Below are positions 1,621-8,504 of a DNA stretch of 33,101 nt, piece by piece. Where the stretch lies: positions 1-33,101 of the forward strand of contig JAQUJJ010000028.1 in the NCBI GenBank assembly GCA_028681035.1, read 5' to 3'. The position numbers and the translations under genes are program-made. Below the pieces are notes generated by a model. It saw only the letters and a list, made by a program, of their open reading frames with translations. It was not told where the DNA came from and ran no database searches. This DNA is from Candidatus Cloacimonadota bacterium. Lineage in GTDB: Bacteria > Cloacimonadota > Cloacimonadia > Cloacimonadales > Cloacimonadaceae. The first letter of the stretch is position 1; every line of letters starts with the position of its first letter.

Positions 1621-3150
1621 ATGAAGACAAAGACAATGGTTGTGATTCTAATGATGGTACTGTGCTACAGTATTGTTAGCGCAGTATATACCAGTCCAGG
1701 ATGGACCTATGGGTTTGAGATTGGAGCCGCTAGAGGCGATAATGCTGGTGCCGCTGAAAACTTTGGTCCCTTAGGAAGGGTTCATGCTCAACTAGACATT
1801 TTTAAGTTTATGAGTGTTCGCGCAGGCTTTGGTTACACCCAATTGCATGCTACAAAGCATTCCCCTGAAGCGTATTCTACTCAAACATTAATGGCAGACT
1901 ACAGAGTAGTTATACAGCCGCTTAGAGATGCCAAGTTCTCTCCGTTCATTTATGCTGGTGTCGGGGCTTCCAAAGAGCTTAAAGACAATCAAGCAGATAT
2001 TATCCCCTTAGCTCCTTTTGGTATTGGATTTCAAACCAAGATTAGAAAGGGAACACTGCTAGAAGTATCTACCGGCTATTCTTTGGCTAATTCTGATGCG
2101 CTTGACAGTAGAGCTAGAGCAAACGATGACATGAACAGATTTACCGATAGAAAACAAGACGGTTTCTTCAGCTTAACAGTCGGTCTTTCCTTCTTTAATG
2201 ATGATGAAGCACCTGCTCCTGCACCACTCCCCCCTGTTGTAGTGGTTACTCCTAAGCCCACACCTCCACCAGTAGTTGTTGCACCTCCAGTAGTTGTTAC
2301 TCCCCCACCAGTTGTTGTTACTCCGCCTCCAGTGGTGGTTACTCCTCCTGTAGTGGTTGATGTTAATCTTGATACTGATGGCGATGGCTTAACCGATTTA
2401 GATGAGATTAATAAATACAAAACTGATCCCATGAAGGCTGACACCGACGGCGAAGGTCTGAACGATTACGTGGAAGTTATGCAATACAAGACTAATCCCC
2501 TAAATCCTGATACCGACGGCGAGGGTCTGAACGATTACGTGGAAGTTATGCAATACAAAACTAATCCTCTTAATCCTGATACCGACGGCGAAGGTCTGAA
2601 CGATTATGTGGAAGTTATGCAATACAAGACTAACCCGCTTAATCCTGATACCGATGGCGACAAACTGACTGACTATGAAGAAGTTATGCAGTATAAAACC
2701 GATCCATTAGTGATGGATACAGATAAGGGCAGCGTCGATGATGGCACAGAAGTGAAAGATGGTAAAGACCCGCTTGATCCCAAAGACGATGTTTTTAAAT
2801 TAACAGAGGGATCTACGTTCGCATTGGAAGGAGTTCTCTTTGAAACCAATAAAGCCACCATCTTGCCCGCTTCCAGTGTAATTCTTGAACAAGCCTATAC
2901 TGCTCTTACTAATAACCCGGATGTGAAGGTTGTTATTGTAGGTCATACCGATAGTGTCGGTTCAGAAACCAGTAACCAATCTCTTTCTCAAAGACGTGCA
3001 GATTCCGTTAAGAACTGGTTAGTGACAAGGGGTATTAGTGCAGACCGCATGAAAACTCTTGGTAAAGGTGAATTATCACCCCGTGCTACTAACGATACTC
3101 CCGCAGGACGCACATTGAACCGTCGCATAGAGTTTGAAGTAGAGAAATAA
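1621..3150 (+). CDS. OmpA-family outer-membrane protein with thrombospondin type 3-like repeats
   Basis: A 509-residue envelope protein likely to link the outer membrane to peptidoglycan. Order of parts: signal peptide (about 1-22, hydrophobic VVILMMVLCYSIVSA); an N-terminal beta-barrel-like domain (about 23-200, aromatic/glycine alternation); a Pro/Val-rich linker of PPVVV repeats (about 205-245); acidic DTDGDGLTD-type repeats resembling calcium-binding thrombospondin type 3 repeats (about 251-390); and a C-terminal OmpA/MotB peptidoglycan-binding domain (about 395-509) with the typical VGHTDSVG, SQRRADSVKNWL and NRRIEF motifs. Three central repeats (2440-2646) are nearly identical at DNA level, unlike their neighbours, so repeat number may vary between strains. 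It is a single-gene transcription unit bracketed by a promoter candidate and a terminator. Domain assignment is strong; no porin activity can be claimed from sequence. Confidence 0.93.
   Translation: MKTKTMVVILMMVLCYSIVSAVYTSPGWTYGFEIGAARGDNAGAAENFGPLGRVHAQLDIFKFMSVRAGFGYTQLHATKHSPEAYSTQTLMADYRVVIQPLRDAKFSPFIYAGVGASKELKDNQADIIPLAPFGIGFQTKIRKGTLLEVSTGYSLANSDALDSRARANDDMNRFTDRKQDGFFSLTVGLSFFNDDEAPAPAPLPPVVVVTPKPTPPPVVVAPPVVVTPPPVVVTPPPVVVTPPVVVDVNLDTDGDGLTDLDEINKYKTDPMKADTDGEGLNDYVEVMQYKTNPLNPDTDGEGLNDYVEVMQYKTNPLNPDTDGEGLNDYVEVMQYKTNPLNPDTDGDKLTDYEEVMQYKTDPLVMDTDKGSVDDGTEVKDGKDPLDPKDDVFKLTEGSTFALEGVLFETNKATILPASSVILEQAYTALTNNPDVKVVIVGHTDSVGSETSNQSLSQRRADSVKNWLVTRGISADRMKTLGKGELSPRATNDTPAGRTLNRRIEFEVEK
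2440..2646 (+). repeat. Three tandem 69-bp repeats inside the OmpA-like gene
   Basis: Units 2440-2508, 2509-2577 and 2578-2646 differ at only a few third-codon or wobble positions and each encodes a 23-residue repeat starting DTDGEGLNDY. Flanking units at 2371-2439 and 2647-2715 code for related but diverged repeats. 69 bp is a multiple of three, so copy changes keep the frame. Confidence 0.95.
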
Positions 3151-3186
3151 ACTAAGAATAAGACAAACAAATAATTAACCTAATAT

Positions 3187-3224
3187 GCCGGAGGAGAGAA
3201 TGTTTCTCCTCCGGCTTTGCTTTA
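3187..3224 (+). terminator. Rho-independent terminator after the OmpA-like gene
   Basis: An 11-bp perfect stem, GCCGGAGGAGA (3187-3197) with TCTCCTCCGGC (3205-3215), closes a 7-base loop and is followed by TTTGCTTT. It lies 36 bases after the stop codon. Confidence 0.85.
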
Positions 3225-3260
3225 TAGTGATAACGGTATTTACATAAACCTACCACTTAA

Positions 3261-3345
3261 CTTGCTTGCTGCAATTTCAGGAGATTCTGAGGTGATCCCC
3301 ATGTAATTCCCACGTCGCCACGAGGGAATCACGTGGGAAGTGCCA
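3261..3345. repeat. Palindromic element, partial copy of the element at 17691-17800
   Basis: It starts CTTGCTTGCTGCAATTTCAG and contains GAGGTGATCCCCATG and a 9-bp inverted repeat, TTCCCACGT (3307-3315) with ACGTGGGAA (3331-3339). The opening words, the GATCCCC core and the following hairpin recur in the intact element at 17691-17800, but the matching right arm is missing here. No coding potential. Confidence 0.5.
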
Positions 3346-3467
3346 GCGCAAAACTTGGGGCTATAGCAAGAGATCAACCAGATGGCTTATAGTGTTTTAC
3401 AATAAGTTATGGTTCATGTTCATTTATGGTGGGTAAGGAGACTTGATCACCAAAAATGTAAAAGAGA

Positions 3468-3551
3468 AGTCCCAGCGGGACAAAAGGTATTAGCGACGGG
3501 TTTTAACCCGGCGACAATGGAGAAAAAGAAAATTGCTAGTCCCAGCGGGAC
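3468..3551. repeat. Pair of REP-like hairpin repeats
   Basis: The 14-mer AGTCCCAGCGGGAC occurs twice (3468-3481 and 3538-3551); each copy forms a GTCCC/GGGAC stem. Between them is a further perfect hairpin, CGGGTT-TT-AACCCG (3497-3510). The pattern suits short extragenic palindromes. Nothing indicates coding. Confidence 0.6.
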
Positions 3552-3616
3552 GACAGATGTAGTCATATATGTTTGTAAGTATTAACGCAAAGAAAAAGCC
3601 ACCTGTCACCCCGTTT

Positions 3617-3797
3617 TTATTGAATCTTTATGACTTGCTGTCTTCCAATAGTGAGTTATTATGGTGGAAAAGGGATAGTCACCCCGTAGACTTCGAGTCT
3701 GACTCATTGTTATCCCTTCCACCAACCTTAAAGGTCTTAGAGTAACTTGGCACAAGATGTCTTAAACAAATGGAAGACTAAGGGTTGGATTCAATAA
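3617..3797 (+). ncRNA. Candidate IS110-type bridge RNA (structured leader of truncated transposase)
   Basis: This 181-base stretch lies directly upstream of an IS110 transposase fragment, where IS110-group elements encode their bridge RNA. It folds in nested order. Outer stem: TTATTGAATC (3617-3626) with GATTCAATAA (3788-3797), 10 bp perfect. Second stem: GTCTTCCA (3640-3647) with TGGAAGAC (3771-3778). Third stem: 3663-3677 with 3711-3723 (GGTGG/CCACC, then AGGGATA/TATCCCT). The third stem closes a 33-base internal loop holding an AGACT-TCG-AGTCT hairpin (3688-3700). A second open region (3724-3770) contains a small CTTG-GCA-CAAG hairpin. Size and architecture resemble known bridge RNAs (about 170-180 bases, two loops). 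Seen: the pairings. Known: the location rule. Inferred: bridge-RNA identity. Confidence 0.6.
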
Positions 3798-3813
3798 TAA
3801 CTGGAGGTAAAAA

Positions 3814-3921
3814 ATGAAGACAAGTCTTTACCTTGGCATTGATGTCAGCAAGGGATACGCTGATTTTTGCCTATTAAACGCCGCACGGAAAGTAGTCGGT
3901 AAACCGTTTCTGCGAAAGTAA
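3814..3921 (+). pseudogene. IS110-family transposase, N-terminal fragment of 35 codons
   Basis: The ATG is preceded by a good GGAGGT ribosome-binding site. The short product opens MKTSLYLGIDVSKGYADF, the start of the RuvC-like DEDD transposase domain of IS110 elements; the first catalytic Asp is in GIDVSK (Asp10). After LLNAARKVVGKPFLRK the frame meets a stop and the following DNA carries no further transposase sequence in any frame. A complete protein would have several hundred residues, so this is a remnant left by an internal deletion that removed the rest of the gene. The non-coding leader upstream is retained and structured. IS110 identity is confident from the short but characteristic motif; there is no activity in cis. 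Confidence 0.75.
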
Positions 3922-4107
3922 CGAGCTAACTTACGGTGTAGTCCATTGGGCTGCATAAGTTAGAGCTAATAGCAAAACAATAAAAACCCAATCGACTCCA
4001 CACTATCATACACATCTTGAGCTACCAATGGAACAATTGGAGATTCCTCTTGACATTTAAGGGAGCGTAAATGACAAGGAGCATTAGTATAAAGTGAAGG
4101 AAAATAG
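3922..4107. other. Non-coding junction between IS110 remnant and prfB
   Basis: It contains one hairpin, CTAACTTA (about 3926-3933) with TAAGTTAG (about 3956-3963), possibly the other end of the deleted element, and otherwise no feature I recognise. A TTGACA occurs at 4050-4055 and TAGTAT/TATAAA at about 4085-4093, but their spacing is too long for a normal promoter pair. GTGAAGGA just before 4108 can act as the ribosome-binding site of prfB. Confidence 0.4.
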
Positions 4108-5224
4108 ATGGAATACGCAGATTACAAAAAAACAGCTAGCGAACTGATAGATCAAATCTCTGAAATACGGAGGTTACTTTGATCCAGAACCGAAACATAT
4201 ATTAGTTTCAGAACTTGAACTTCAAACGAACGAACCCGGCTTTTGGAATGACCAACAAACCGCCAAGAAAATCAGCAAACGGCTTAGCCAAATCCGTGAA
4301 GATATTAATCATATAGCTAAATTGGATAATGTTCGTGAAGAACTGGAGACTTATATCAGCTTTTTGGATGATGATTTCCAAGATTCGTTGTTTGAAGAAG
4401 CGATAGACAACTTAGATCGTATTAAGACCTTTATCGAGAAAGCTGAGATTGAATGCTATTTGAATGACAAATACGACCACAACGATGCACTCTTCACCAT
4501 CCATGCCGGTGCAGGCGGAACTGAGGCACAGGATTGGGCTGAAATGCTGCTCCGCATGTATATGCACTGGGCTGAAGATAATAAATACACATTTACCGTA
4601 ATAGATTCCCTCCCCGGAGAAGAAGCAGGATTGAAAAGCGTTAGCGTAGAAGTGGGTGGAAACTTTGCCTATGGCATGCTGAAAAGCGAAATCGGCATAC
4701 ATCGCTTGGTACGGATGAGTCCCTTTAACTCCCAAGGTAAACGTCAGACTTCGTTTGCGTCCGTGTTTGTTTATCCTGAGTTTGATGATGATATCGAAGT
4801 AGAAATAGATACAAAAGACTTAAAAATAGATACTTATCGTGCCAGCGGCGCAGGTGGACAGCATGTTAATACTACAGACAGTGCCGTACGCATTACACAT
4901 TTGCCTACCAATATTGTAGTTAGCTGCCAAAATGAACGTTCCCAAACTCAGAATAAAGACAAAGCTATGGCAATCCTGAAAAGCAGGCTGTATCAGTATT
5001 ATGAAGAACAGCGAGATGCCGAAAAAAGGAAAGTTGATAGCAGCAAGACCGAAATAGGATGGGGTAACCAGATCCGCAGCTATGTTTTCCAGCCCTACCA
5101 GATGGTTAAAGACCACAGGACAAACCACGAAAGCGGGCAGGTTGATAAAGTGATGAATGGAGACCTAGATGGCTTTATTTATGCCTGGCTGAAGTATGCG
5201 GCAAGCCTGAGGATTAATGGCTAA
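4108..5224 (+). CDS. prfB: Peptide chain release factor 2 with programmed +1 frameshift
   Basis: RF2 recognises UGA and UAA stop codons on the ribosome and triggers peptide release. Translation begins at ATG 4108 and runs 24 codons to an in-frame TGA at 4180-4182; a +1 shift on CTT (4177-4179) continues at GAT 4181 to the stop at 5222-5224, giving 371 residues. The joined protein is colinear with known RF2: the SPF anticodon-mimic tripeptide lies at 204-206 and GGQ (in GAGGQHVNTT) at 249-251, one residue from the E. coli positions. The internal TTG at 4322 is not a real start, since the upstream shifted frame encodes conserved RF2 sequence (PGFWNDQQTAKKISKRL). RF2 levels should be autoregulated through the frameshift. 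The uppS gene overlaps its end by 8 bases. Confidence 0.96.
4168..4183 (+). promoter_or_regulatory. RF2 programmed frameshift site
   Basis: The sequence CGG AGG TTA CTT TGA has every part of the conserved RF2 recoding signal: an internal Shine-Dalgarno-like CGGAGG (4168-4173), a 3-base spacer, the slippery CTT (4177-4179) and an in-frame TGA (4180-4182) followed by T. Low RF2 leaves the TGA unread and favours the shift into the full-length frame. Confidence 0.95.
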
Positions 5225-5960
5225 GCAGAGCTATAAAGACCTATTGCCGCAGTTAATAAAAGAACGTTTGCCCAAGCATATTGGGATTATTATGGACGGA
5301 AATGGCAGATGGGCAAAGCTGCATAATAGACCCCATCTTTTCGGGCATCGTGCCGGAGCAAAATCTATCAAAGAAGTTGTAGAATTGGGCGTTGAGCTTG
5401 GCATACCGTATTTGACCTTCTATACTTTTTCCACAGAAAACTGGAGCCGCCCTGCCGAGGAAGTGAAAGGTTTGTTGAAAATGCTGAAGGAACGCTTAAT
5501 TGTAGAAGTTCCAGAGCTTTATAAACAAAACATATATGTGCAATTCATTGGCACGGACGAAGGACTTGATCCCGATTACTGGAAAGAAGTTCAGTCTATT
5601 GCTGCAAAAACACATACAAATACAGGGATGGTGCTGAATATTGCCTTTAATTATGGAGGCAGGGTGGAAGTTATAGAAGGGATAAAAAAGCTGGTTGCAG
5701 AAAAAACCCCTGATGAGATTTCTAAGCTTAATATCGAGTTATTCAGCGAATACCTTTATACCAAAGGGCAACCTGATCCGGATTTGATAATCCGCAGCAG
5801 CGGAGAAATGCGCTTATCTAATTTCCTCTTGTGGCAATCGGCATATTCAGAACTATACATCACCGAAACCTTGTGGCCTGATTTTAATAAAGGTGAAATG
5901 ATGAAAGCTTTGTTAGACTACCAGAAAAGAAATAGAAGATTTGGAGGAAGAAAGAAATGA
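5217..5960 (+). CDS. uppS: Isoprenyl transferase (undecaprenyl diphosphate synthase)
   Basis: A 247-residue cis-prenyltransferase. It extends farnesyl diphosphate with isopentenyl diphosphate units to undecaprenyl diphosphate, the lipid carrier for peptidoglycan and O-antigen-like glycans. All family signatures are visible: GIIMDGNGRWAK with the catalytic Asp27, GHRAGAKSIKEV, TFYTFSTENWSRP, LNIAFNYGGR, and the C-terminal PDPDLIIRSSGEMRLSNFLL and SELYITETLWPDF. The length is normal. The start codon overlaps the prfB end by 8 bases and its stop overlaps the cdsA start by 4 bases (ATGA), so translation is probably coupled. The pairing with cdsA is widespread in bacteria. The lipid made here would serve the glycan genes further downstream. 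Confidence 0.96.
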   Translation: MAKQSYKDLLPQLIKERLPKHIGIIMDGNGRWAKLHNRPHLFGHRAGAKSIKEVVELGVELGIPYLTFYTFSTENWSRPAEEVKGLLKMLKERLIVEVPELYKQNIYVQFIGTDEGLDPDYWKEVQSIAAKTHTNTGMVLNIAFNYGGRVEVIEGIKKLVAEKTPDEISKLNIELFSEYLYTKGQPDPDLIIRSSGEMRLSNFLLWQSAYSELYITETLWPDFNKGEMMKALLDYQKRNRRFGGRKK

Positions 5961-6751
5961 CGGAGGTGCGAACTCGTGTTCTGATGTCACTCATACTTGT
6001 TCCTCTCGCATTGTACGCATTTTATTGTGGAGGCATCCCCTTAATCATCCTCTTCGGAATAGTTGCGTCACTTGGTTCTATAGAATTTGTAACGATGCTG
6101 AGAAAAGCAGGTATTAGCATCCCATATTATTGGAGTGCAGTAAGTTTTATAACATACCTAGCTATGGTTTTATCCAATAAAATAGACATGCCGATCCTGT
6201 GGTTGATTGTGTTTATAGCTTTTGTAGAAGCATTACTCAACTGGAACACTGAGAAATCTGTCCCACGAGTTTTTGCAACTCTATTCGGCTTGATATACAC
6301 ATCTTTATTCCCCGCGATGATAACGAGGATAGGACTTTCAAATCCAGATAAGAATATTTTGCTTGCCTTAATTCTAATGATCTGGATAGTTGACACAAGT
6401 GCGTACTTTATTGGCATGAAGTATGGCAAAAAGCGTAATATAACGGCAGTTAGTCCACGCAAATCCCTAGCTGGTTTTGTTGCTGGCGGGCTTGCACCTT
6501 GGGTTATTGTGGTTATCTTATGGATTAGTAAAGTGGATTTACTGCCAATGAGCCATGTTGTTTTAATTGCTATTGCAGCAGGTTTCATTGGACAAATAGG
6601 TGATCTGGCAGAATCTATGCTAAAAAGGTTCTGCGGTGTTAAGGACAGTTCGAATCTGATCCCCGGTCACGGGGGCATATTAGATCGTTCTGATAGTATC
6701 CTGCTTGCAGGTTCATTTTTATATTGTGCTCTGATATTATTACAAAAGTGA
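5957..6751 (+). CDS. cdsA: Phosphatidate cytidylyltransferase (CDP-diglyceride synthase)
   Basis: A 264-residue integral membrane enzyme that converts phosphatidic acid and CTP to CDP-diacylglycerol, the precursor of all bacterial phospholipids. About seven to eight hydrophobic segments span the protein, beginning with VLMSLILVPLALYAFY. The family signature near the C-terminus is complete: VSPRKSLAGFVAGG, GQIGDLAESMLKR, then KDSSNLIPGHGGILDRSDSI, which carries the metal/nucleotide-binding acidic residues. The start overlaps uppS by 4 bases in an ATGA junction, and the next gene begins 10 bases after the stop. The length is typical and no defects are seen. Confidence 0.95.
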   Translation: MTEVRTRVLMSLILVPLALYAFYCGGIPLIILFGIVASLGSIEFVTMLRKAGISIPYYWSAVSFITYLAMVLSNKIDMPILWLIVFIAFVEALLNWNTEKSVPRVFATLFGLIYTSLFPAMITRIGLSNPDKNILLALILMIWIVDTSAYFIGMKYGKKRNITAVSPRKSLAGFVAGGLAPWVIVVILWISKVDLLPMSHVVLIAIAAGFIGQIGDLAESMLKRFCGVKDSSNLIPGHGGILDRSDSILLAGSFLYCALILLQK

Positions 6752-6761
6752 GGTAAATACG

Positions 6762-8504
6762 ATGAAAAAAGCACTAACAACAGTACTTATGCTTGTGGCT
6801 TTGACCTTTGTTTTCGGTCAAACAATCCTTTATTACTGGAATTTTAACGCTGGCTCTCCAGCAACTGACCAAACGTGGGCGCAACCCATCGCTGCTACCC
6901 AAGGCAATGCTAATCTTACATTTACAACTACAGAAGCCTTTTCCTTTGGCGGCACCTTGTTCAATGGTGTTGATGGTGAAGTAATTGGCGGTAGCTTTGC
7001 ACCAAGAGGTGGAGTAGATAACGTTAATAATGGAAGCTATTTTACAATAATGGCTTCCACCGTAGGTTTTGACAACATTTCTATATCCTACCCTACTCGT
7101 AAAACAGGTACAGGCTTCACAACTCAGGAAGTGAAATATACCACTGATGGAACTACTTGGATTAGCAAAGAAACCGTAAGCTTAAGCACATTTGCCAACA
7201 ATTGGGTAGAATCCCAGATGGTTAATGTGGATTTCAATAGTATTCCTGCGACTGCAAATAACCCCAACTTTGGTATTCGCGTGGTGTTGGATGGATGTAC
7301 TTCAGCATCTGGTAATAACCGCATAGACAATATCCGCATTAGCGGTGCTCTTCAAGGTGGCGTGGCTACTCCTATCTTCGATCCAGCAGGTGGTTATTTT
7401 GCCCAACCAGTTAATGTAGCTATGACTACCACTACTCCCAATGCCACTATCCGCTATACTACAAACGGATCAGAACCTACAGAAACTTCAACTCTCTATA
7501 CCACACCCATAAATATTACAACAACCACAACCCTAAAAGCAAAAGGCTTTGCTGCGGGTATGGTAACCAGCGTAACTGCAACTGCAACTTATAGCTTTGC
7601 TACAGTCGTAAGCGACCTTACTGAACTTAGACAAATGCCTGTAGGCGATGCTGTTTACTTTCTCCCTAGTCCGGCTATTTTGACATGGAAACAGAGCAAC
7701 CATAAATATGTTCAGGATGCTGGTGCTGGTATCTACGTGTATGATACTGCTGGTGTAATACCCCAAGCTCCTTACGAAATTGGTGATGCTATTTCTGGTT
7801 TAACTGGTAAGTTGGTGCTTTACTTTGAAACATTGGAATTCGTACCTGTATCCAATCCCGGTCCGCCAACTTCTAGCGGAAACGATATTGTCATTCCAAC
7901 TGTTACCGTAGCTCAGTTAAATTCTGATATTGGCATTAACATGTACCAATCCCGTTTGGTTCGCATTAACCAAACTCATTTTGACGCCCCAAGCGGAAAC
8001 TTCCCTACAGATGCATCTTTAACTTACGGGATATCTGATGATACTGGCTCTATGAGCTTTAGAACAGGTTTCTGGGATGCTAATTACATGGGAACACCAA
8101 TGCCAATCGGTACTTTCAATATGCTTGGCATAATTGCCCATTTCCAATCCACCGCCCAGATTACTTCTCGTAGTTTGGCAGACCTTAATGCCGGCTCAGC
8201 TAATGATGACGAGTTTGTAACCCCAGCAGGAGCTACCTTGATTGGTAACTATCCTAACCCCTTCAATCCTAATACCAATATTAGTTTCTCATTAGATAAA
8301 GCTGCTCCAGCTCAAGTAACTATTTACAACCAGAAAGGACAAACTGTAAAGAGCTTTGATATGCCAATCGCAAAACAAGGCGTTACAACTTTGGACTGGA
8401 ATGGTACTGATAATTCCGGTAATTCCGTTTCCAGCGGTGTTTATTACTTCCGCTTAAAATCTGGAAGCTACAGCAGCACCAAGAAAATGGTACTGATGAA
8501 GTAG
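6762..8504 (+). CDS. Secreted multidomain protein with FlgD-like C-terminal sorting tail
   Basis: A 580-residue exported protein. A signal peptide (MKKALTTVLMLVALTFVFGQ) precedes an N-terminal beta-rich domain (about 21-200). About residues 203-282 resemble a chitobiase/beta-hexosaminidase C-terminal type domain (ATIRYTTNGSEPTETSTLY, LKAKGFAAGM). Residues about 283-480 look like an OB-fold region (YVQDAGAGIYVYD, then VRINQTHF). The C-terminal ~85 residues are the FlgD-like/type IX-type tail with GNYPNPFNPNTNISFSL, a LDWNGTDNSGNSVSSGVYYF core and a final KKMVLMK. Proteins with this tail in FCB bacteria are usually surface-attached or released. No catalytic motif was recognised. It starts 10 bases after cdsA with a GAGGT ribosome-binding site, so it may share the transcript. 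Confidence 0.88.
   Translation: MKKALTTVLMLVALTFVFGQTILYYWNFNAGSPATDQTWAQPIAATQGNANLTFTTTEAFSFGGTLFNGVDGEVIGGSFAPRGGVDNVNNGSYFTIMASTVGFDNISISYPTRKTGTGFTTQEVKYTTDGTTWISKETVSLSTFANNWVESQMVNVDFNSIPATANNPNFGIRVVLDGCTSASGNNRIDNIRISGALQGGVATPIFDPAGGYFAQPVNVAMTTTTPNATIRYTTNGSEPTETSTLYTTPINITTTTTLKAKGFAAGMVTSVTATATYSFATVVSDLTELRQMPVGDAVYFLPSPAILTWKQSNHKYVQDAGAGIYVYDTAGVIPQAPYEIGDAISGLTGKLVLYFETLEFVPVSNPGPPTSSGNDIVIPTVTVAQLNSDIGINMYQSRLVRINQTHFDAPSGNFPTDASLTYGISDDTGSMSFRTGFWDANYMGTPMPIGTFNMLGIIAHFQSTAQITSRSLADLNAGSANDDEFVTPAGATLIGNYPNPFNPNTNISFSLDKAAPAQVTIYNQKGQTVKSFDMPIAKQGVTTLDWNGTDNSGNSVSSGVYYFRLKSGSYSSTKKMVLMK

Follow-up and report, generated by a model that had tools for sequence, protein, structure and literature searches.

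The window analysed here, a stretch of 33,101 nucleotides, lies on a contig that is Cloacimonadota-like: its CdsA (5957-6748) has 73% identity with the CdsA of HGW-Cloacimonetes-3 (L001) and 68% with that of UBA5553 (L002). Between a gene for an OmpA-like protein (1621-3150) and prfB (4108-5224) lie a leader and an open frame of 35 codons, which a sequence-only reading had described as an orphan IS110 leader beside a transposase stub; both are where that reading placed them, and 32 of the 35 codons align with IS110 transposases. The neighbourhood holds further features. Two REP-like repeats (3453-3486 and 3523-3556), with the palindrome GTCCCAGCGGGAC, are found just upstream of the element, and sequence similar to them flanks the L145 site in genome G010. 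Within prfB, an in-frame TGA (4180-4182) follows CTT and is preceded by GGAGG, an arrangement that looks like the known programmed frameshift of prfB, and the protein encoded at 6762-8504 carries a type IX secretion sorting tail (TIGR04183, 41.9 bits). The features of the element and its edges are as follows.

3605 to 3611, plus strand: left half of the target, GTCACCC, followed by the core CG at 3612 to 3613; together these form the insertion edge
3614 to 3813, plus strand: left end of an IS110-group element, comprising the bridge-RNA gene and transposase leader (200 bases from the edge to the ATG)
3617 to 3626 with 3788 to 3797: 10-bp stem, present in the window
3630 to 3659, plus strand: 5' stem-loop of the bridge RNA, arms 3630 to 3637 and 3652 to 3659, from the consensus of six leaders
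3664 to 3722, plus strand: target-binding hairpin, both outer helices paired in 6/6 aligned leaders
3664 to 3668 and 3672 to 3678 with 3710 to 3716 and 3718 to 3722: 5+7-bp stem, formed in 6/6 aligned leaders
3678 to 3687, plus strand: left target guide GTCACCCCGT, identical to the insertion-edge bases 3605 to 3614
3701 to 3709, plus strand: predicted right target guide GACTCATTG, which predicts the right target CA-ATGAGTC
3723 to 3787, plus strand: donor-binding hairpin, from the consensus of three full-length leaders
3737 to 3746, plus strand: left donor guide TTAGAGTAAC, the same in the L039 leader
3803 to 3807, plus strand: ribosome-binding-like GGAGG before the ATG, judged from the sequence
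3814 to 3921, plus strand: transposase stub of 35 codons, ATG at 3814 and stop at 3919 to 3921
3911 to 4039, no strand assigned: sequence after the break, origin not recognised, without a right end of the element

Codons 1-32 of the stub align with IS110 transposases, after which three residues (LRK) and the stop come from foreign sequence. Since the stub alone scores 13.6 bits against the Pfam model, under the cut-off of 29, its identity depends on its homologues. Among the matches listed (120 of 1018 transposase relatives), the stub agrees at 32/32 residues with the intact Cloacimonas transposase P0004, which its source assigns to Candidatus Cloacimonas sp., while P0005 and P0006 differ from the stub by a single residue. 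Having 35 codons in place of a complete transposase, the window copy is not an autonomous IS110 element and, as no right end was found, does not have the two ends that mobilisation in trans would need. A search of the leader against 124 genomes of the phylum gave matches in 38 genomes at E <= 0.1, mostly over short stretches, and four genomes stood out at E < 1e-11, namely G010 (84% identity), G040 (89% over 124 bases), G043 (72%) and G044 (75%). The window leader is 84% identical over 264 bases to L039 in G010, where it precedes an intact transposase of 469 amino acids, and a homologous leader precedes an intact transposase of 464 amino acids at L041 in G043; intact relatives with the same leader, to which the sequence-only reading had appealed, thus exist. 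The L039, L041 and P0004 transposases all exceed the cut-offs for PF01548 (the N-terminal DEDD domain) and the C-terminal PF02371, and the layout is that of the IS110 group, with about 200 bases before the gene and short right ends that measure approximately 45 bases from stop to tip in L039 and 65 in L041. The leader had no match in plasmids or phages, neither the exact pattern of the stub nor that of the target hairpin was found in viral contigs, the L039 transposase likewise had no match in viral contigs, and plasmid relatives of the transposase are distant (1660 records, all below 60% identity).

A covariance model, R1, was built on the 5' half of six leaders, the window and five from G010, G040, G043 and G044. 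R1 gave 16 matches at E <= 0.1 in 6 of the 124 genomes, and 12 of these are genuine left ends, all in G010, G040, G043 and G044, a result that is partly by construction because five of the six model leaders come from the genomes matched. The four matches left out are two antisense matches to a near-palindromic hairpin (G010 and G043) and one weak match each in G056 and G121. Two left ends, G044:C62 and G043:C152, were new from this model, and a left-tip pattern recovered 12 tips in three of the four genomes. The window, itself among the model's leaders, scores 123.2 bits at 3614-3728; the minus strand at 3658-3800 also matches R1 (29.5 bits), owing to the nearly palindromic target hairpin.

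The strand at 3617-3810 has a folding energy of -59.4 kcal/mol, compared with -43.1 (sd 4.2) in shuffled sequences (z -3.87; 0/200 shuffles as good). The order of elements in the leader is 5' stem-loop, target hairpin and donor hairpin; the stem that closes the structure is well formed in the window and in L039 but poorly formed in L041. For the 5' stem-loop, 93.8% of cells are paired across the six leaders. Over 24 pairs in six leaders, standard pairs fill 97.9% of the 144 cells, compared with at most 52.1% when partners are slid by 1-3 columns, and of the 57 full-length consensus pairs the window forms 55, L039 54 and L041 44. The minimum-energy fold of the window (-62.1) is unlike the consensus fold (-44.8). 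Three nested perfect stems had been proposed from the sequence, and all three are present in the window; the 5+7-bp stem recurs in all six leaders, but the 8-bp stem (GTCTTCCA with TGGAAGAC) has both arms in neither full-length relative, L039 nor L041, and for this reason probably does not belong to the functional fold. Comparison with covariance models, likewise put forward in that reading, gave a divided answer: Rfam at gathering thresholds returned no match over the leader, whereas the model built from the relatives and the window does match. Given that match, that an intact relative exists and that the paired bases are largely kept in homologous leaders, as the sequence-only reading would have them, we believe that the bridge-RNA reading stands. 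Covariation is modest, with 2/24 pairs altered on both sides, a number that 31/500 shuffles also reach, and the argument for a bridge RNA therefore rests on the match between guides and flanks.

The insertion edge (3605-3613) was located by alignment of ten left ends, and the 10-mer GTCACCCCGT occurs in the window at positions 3605 and 3678 and nowhere else. The flank bases that match the leader's own loop differ from allele to allele: GTCACCC-CG in the window, GCCGTCC-CT in G040, AAGAGTT-CA in G043, GCCGTGC-CG in G044 and TCGCCCA-CA in G010. When each of these five leader alleles is paired with its own flank, 42/45 positions match, and the true pairing alone of 120 reaches this number (mean 21.2); here a single flank (L042) represents six G044 sites, and the guide-flank register of L039 is one base longer than that of the other alleles. 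The right guide of the window was assigned by its position relative to G040, G044 and G010, where the segment matches the right flank. In reverse complement, the right guide agrees with the right flank at 7/7 positions in G040, 7/7 in G044, 5/7 in G010 and 4/7 in G043, a total of 23/28 over four alleles that is tied by one other pairing of 24 and is weaker than the left-guide test; the G044 right target was taken from empty and truncated sites, and the ends of the G040 element lie on different contigs. The target-loop guides of the lineage thus match both sides of the insertion site. In the donor loop, L041 carries AAGAGTAAC where the window and L039 carry TTAGAGTAAC, and the right-end tips of L039 and L041 are TAGAGTAAC, which is common to the left donor guide; no right donor guide was recognised in the leaders of the lineage. 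The two loops that the sequence-only reading had named as target- and donor-recognition regions (about 3678-3710 and 3724-3770) do contain the target and donor guides. Sites in G044 that resemble REP sequences also resemble the G044 target, with 23 matches at 1-2 mismatches and none exact (reversed control, 1). With up to 2 mismatches allowed, the predicted full target of the window guides is not enriched across the 124 phylum genomes, having 67 matches in 48 genomes compared with 63 for the reversed pattern.

At the other side of the element, the DNA match between the stub and the L041 transposase gene ends at 3910, and similarity to the L001 sequence upstream of prfB starts at 4040. The right-end tip was not found in the window, where the sole near match is the donor guide itself (3738-3747), nor was the 21-base right-end pattern with up to 3 mismatches. 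The predicted right target was not found after the stub, the best match to CAATGAGTC in 3896-4110 being 6/9, a value reached by 924/1000 shuffles. Because transposase similarity ends at 3910 and both the right end and right target are absent, most of the enzyme gene and the right end appear to have been deleted. A comparison of 3905-4075 with the 124 genomes returned 27 at E <= 0.1 (best E 7e-4) and revealed no empty site. Past the break, an imperfect hairpin (GTAGTCCATTGGGCT ... CCCAATCGACT) occupies 3932-4005; one of the 124 genomes, G009, has two clear copies (L171 and L172) whose stems are altered yet still pair, and the folding of the window hairpin is unexceptional (19/200 shuffles as good).

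Could the window copy instead be a short, MITE-like non-autonomous element that retains both ends and is moved in trans by an intact relative? The bases AAAGTAACG at 3915-3923, just past the break, are faintly like the right-end tip TAGAGTAACA. However, the best match to ATAGAGTAAC is 7/10, which 1646/2000 shuffles reach and which is therefore at chance level, the 21-base pattern is missing from the window as described above, and no second left end of the lineage was found there; we regard such an element as extremely improbable. It is also very unlikely that the left end was wrongly joined to another sequence during assembly. Contigs of the relatives do break inside the element at 4 of 11 sites (G040:C44, G044:C47, G043:C18 and G043:C152), but beyond the join the contig continues into prfB, is L001-like from 4040 and goes on with uppS and cdsA as in L001, and the terminator of the OmpA gene before the leader resembles, by eye, the same place in L001.

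Based on these observations, we consider it likely that a complete IS110 element was inserted here and later lost its enzyme and right end, and that the remnant is immobile on its own, most likely inert, and the product of a recent deletion. First, a complete IS110-group element would have inserted at GTCACCC-CG guided by its own bridge RNA, a step proposed by analogy with IS621. A later deletion, starting at approximately codon 33 of the transposase, would then have removed the rest of the element up to and including its right end; the right target half was probably lost with it. The remnant would thus consist of the left end, its bridge-RNA gene intact, and a stub of 32 transposase codons. 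The sequence-only reading offered a very recent deletion as one of two explanations, and this fits the 32/32 residues common to the stub and P0004, on which we base the view that the deletion was probably recent; that view draws on 32 residues of one protein. A recent deletion would explain why the bridge RNA looks intact, with no function needed.

The second explanation offered in that reading was that the RNA has been retained for use in trans, such that a recombinase encoded by an intact copy elsewhere in the genome would load the transcript of the orphan gene and so gain a further target. The bridge RNA is complete, with both loops in addition to 55 of its 57 consensus pairs, a close intact transposase (P0004) exists, and for IS621 a bridge RNA works when supplied in trans (PMC11208160). 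On the other hand, the intact RNA is explained by recency alone, and four right ends found in the relatives have a TTGAC(A/T) box ahead of the tip; the same pattern gave five further matches, which are unrelated. In IS621 the bridge-RNA promoter is created when the right and left ends join, and its -35 box is contributed by the right end (PMC11208158). The right end and its -35-like box are gone from the window copy, and a scan for one promoter type picked up no promoter-like site on the plus strand of 3151-4120 and a single one on the minus strand. The orphan RNA is thus unlikely to be expressed, and we do not favour its retention as a guide, which we would judge improbable to a high degree. 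The window copy is therefore best seen as the well-preserved remains of an element of known type and not as a new system.

Left ends in the relatives suggest how other orphan leaders might arise. Counted by site there are 11 in four genomes, of which 2 have an intact transposase, 4 lie at contig ends and 5 are cut inside the leader. All five leader-internal cuts are in G044 (L042, L071, L072, L073 and L127), where they make up 5/6 left ends. In L042, L072 and L073 the leader is cut at an internal CA, and the right target half, CTGG(A/C)AC, follows directly; a closely similar empty site, L165, continues with the same sequence downstream. L042 and L073 have their downstream sequence in common and may not be independent but copies of a single insertion that was duplicated, and in two of the five truncated leaders (C74 and C62) the end does not fall at the right target. 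Among eight internal CA sites compared with the left junction, the two used score 10 and 8 of 18 and the other six score 4-5; the two used sites were scored by hand before a script ranked all eight. In G043, the left end at two sites (C25 and C152) abuts the copy of the target inside the guide, GGAGTTCA, giving a tandem of 74 bases in which a left end comes right after the guide-internal target copy (L041:1740-1880 and L122:1-125). These two sites have similar flanks, and their fusions could have arisen from slippage between 8-base direct repeats. Both patterns, that of G044 and that of G043, would be expected from a recombinase that acted at a wrong core.

We tentatively suggest, as a plausible reading that falls short of being the probable one, that the bridge recombinase itself makes orphan leaders by mistaking an internal CA site similar to the left junction (left target, core and left end) for the true one and recombining it with the right junction, so that a cut left end would remain between the two target halves. 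If this is true, excision in the IS110 group would be guided by the bridge RNA, a point called unclear in the IS621 structure paper (PMC11208158). The truncated G044 leaders would thus offer a sequence-level handle on RNA-guided excision, which that paper leaves open, and we regard this idea as the most interesting lead from the analysis. Extending the same origin to the window itself seems very doubtful: three of the five truncated G044 leaders join an internal CA straight to the right half of the target, but the window break falls within the coding region, the sequence beyond it has no predicted right target (the chance-level 6/9 match given above), and the deletion does not bear the G044 signature.

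The work adds to a little-studied phylum an IS110 lineage whose target guides can be read from sequence, and demonstrates that comparison of guide with flank is a way to decode a bridge-RNA remnant. In a partial literature search, the sole match for an orphan or solo bridge RNA was PMC11208160, for bridge RNA in trans; equally partial searches found no such remnant among the titles listed for IS110 MITEs, non-autonomous or solo elements and aberrant excision, and no match for IS110 in Cloacimonadota. In the ISEc21 seekRNA system (Siddiquee et al., 2024, PMC11187229), as in our lineage, an upstream non-coding RNA matches both target strands; compared with that system, the lineage described here is known from sequence alone. 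Compared with the two IS621 papers (Durrant et al., 2024, PMC11208160; Hiraizumi et al., 2024, PMC11208158), our lineage differs from IS621, which has the core CT, in its own core, which is CN on the left side (CG, CT or CA) but CA on the right side, and in its transposases of 464-469 amino acids, and the window copy differs in having neither enzyme nor right end. In other respects the likeness to those published descriptions is close. As in IS621, a long left end encodes a structured RNA with a 5' stem-loop and target and donor loops, the left guide comprises 7 bases plus the core, and the target loop has the two-guide anatomy of left and right guides that Durrant et al. describe; REP-like targets (in G044), a transposase with PF01548 and PF02371, and a short right end with a -35-like box complete the resemblance.
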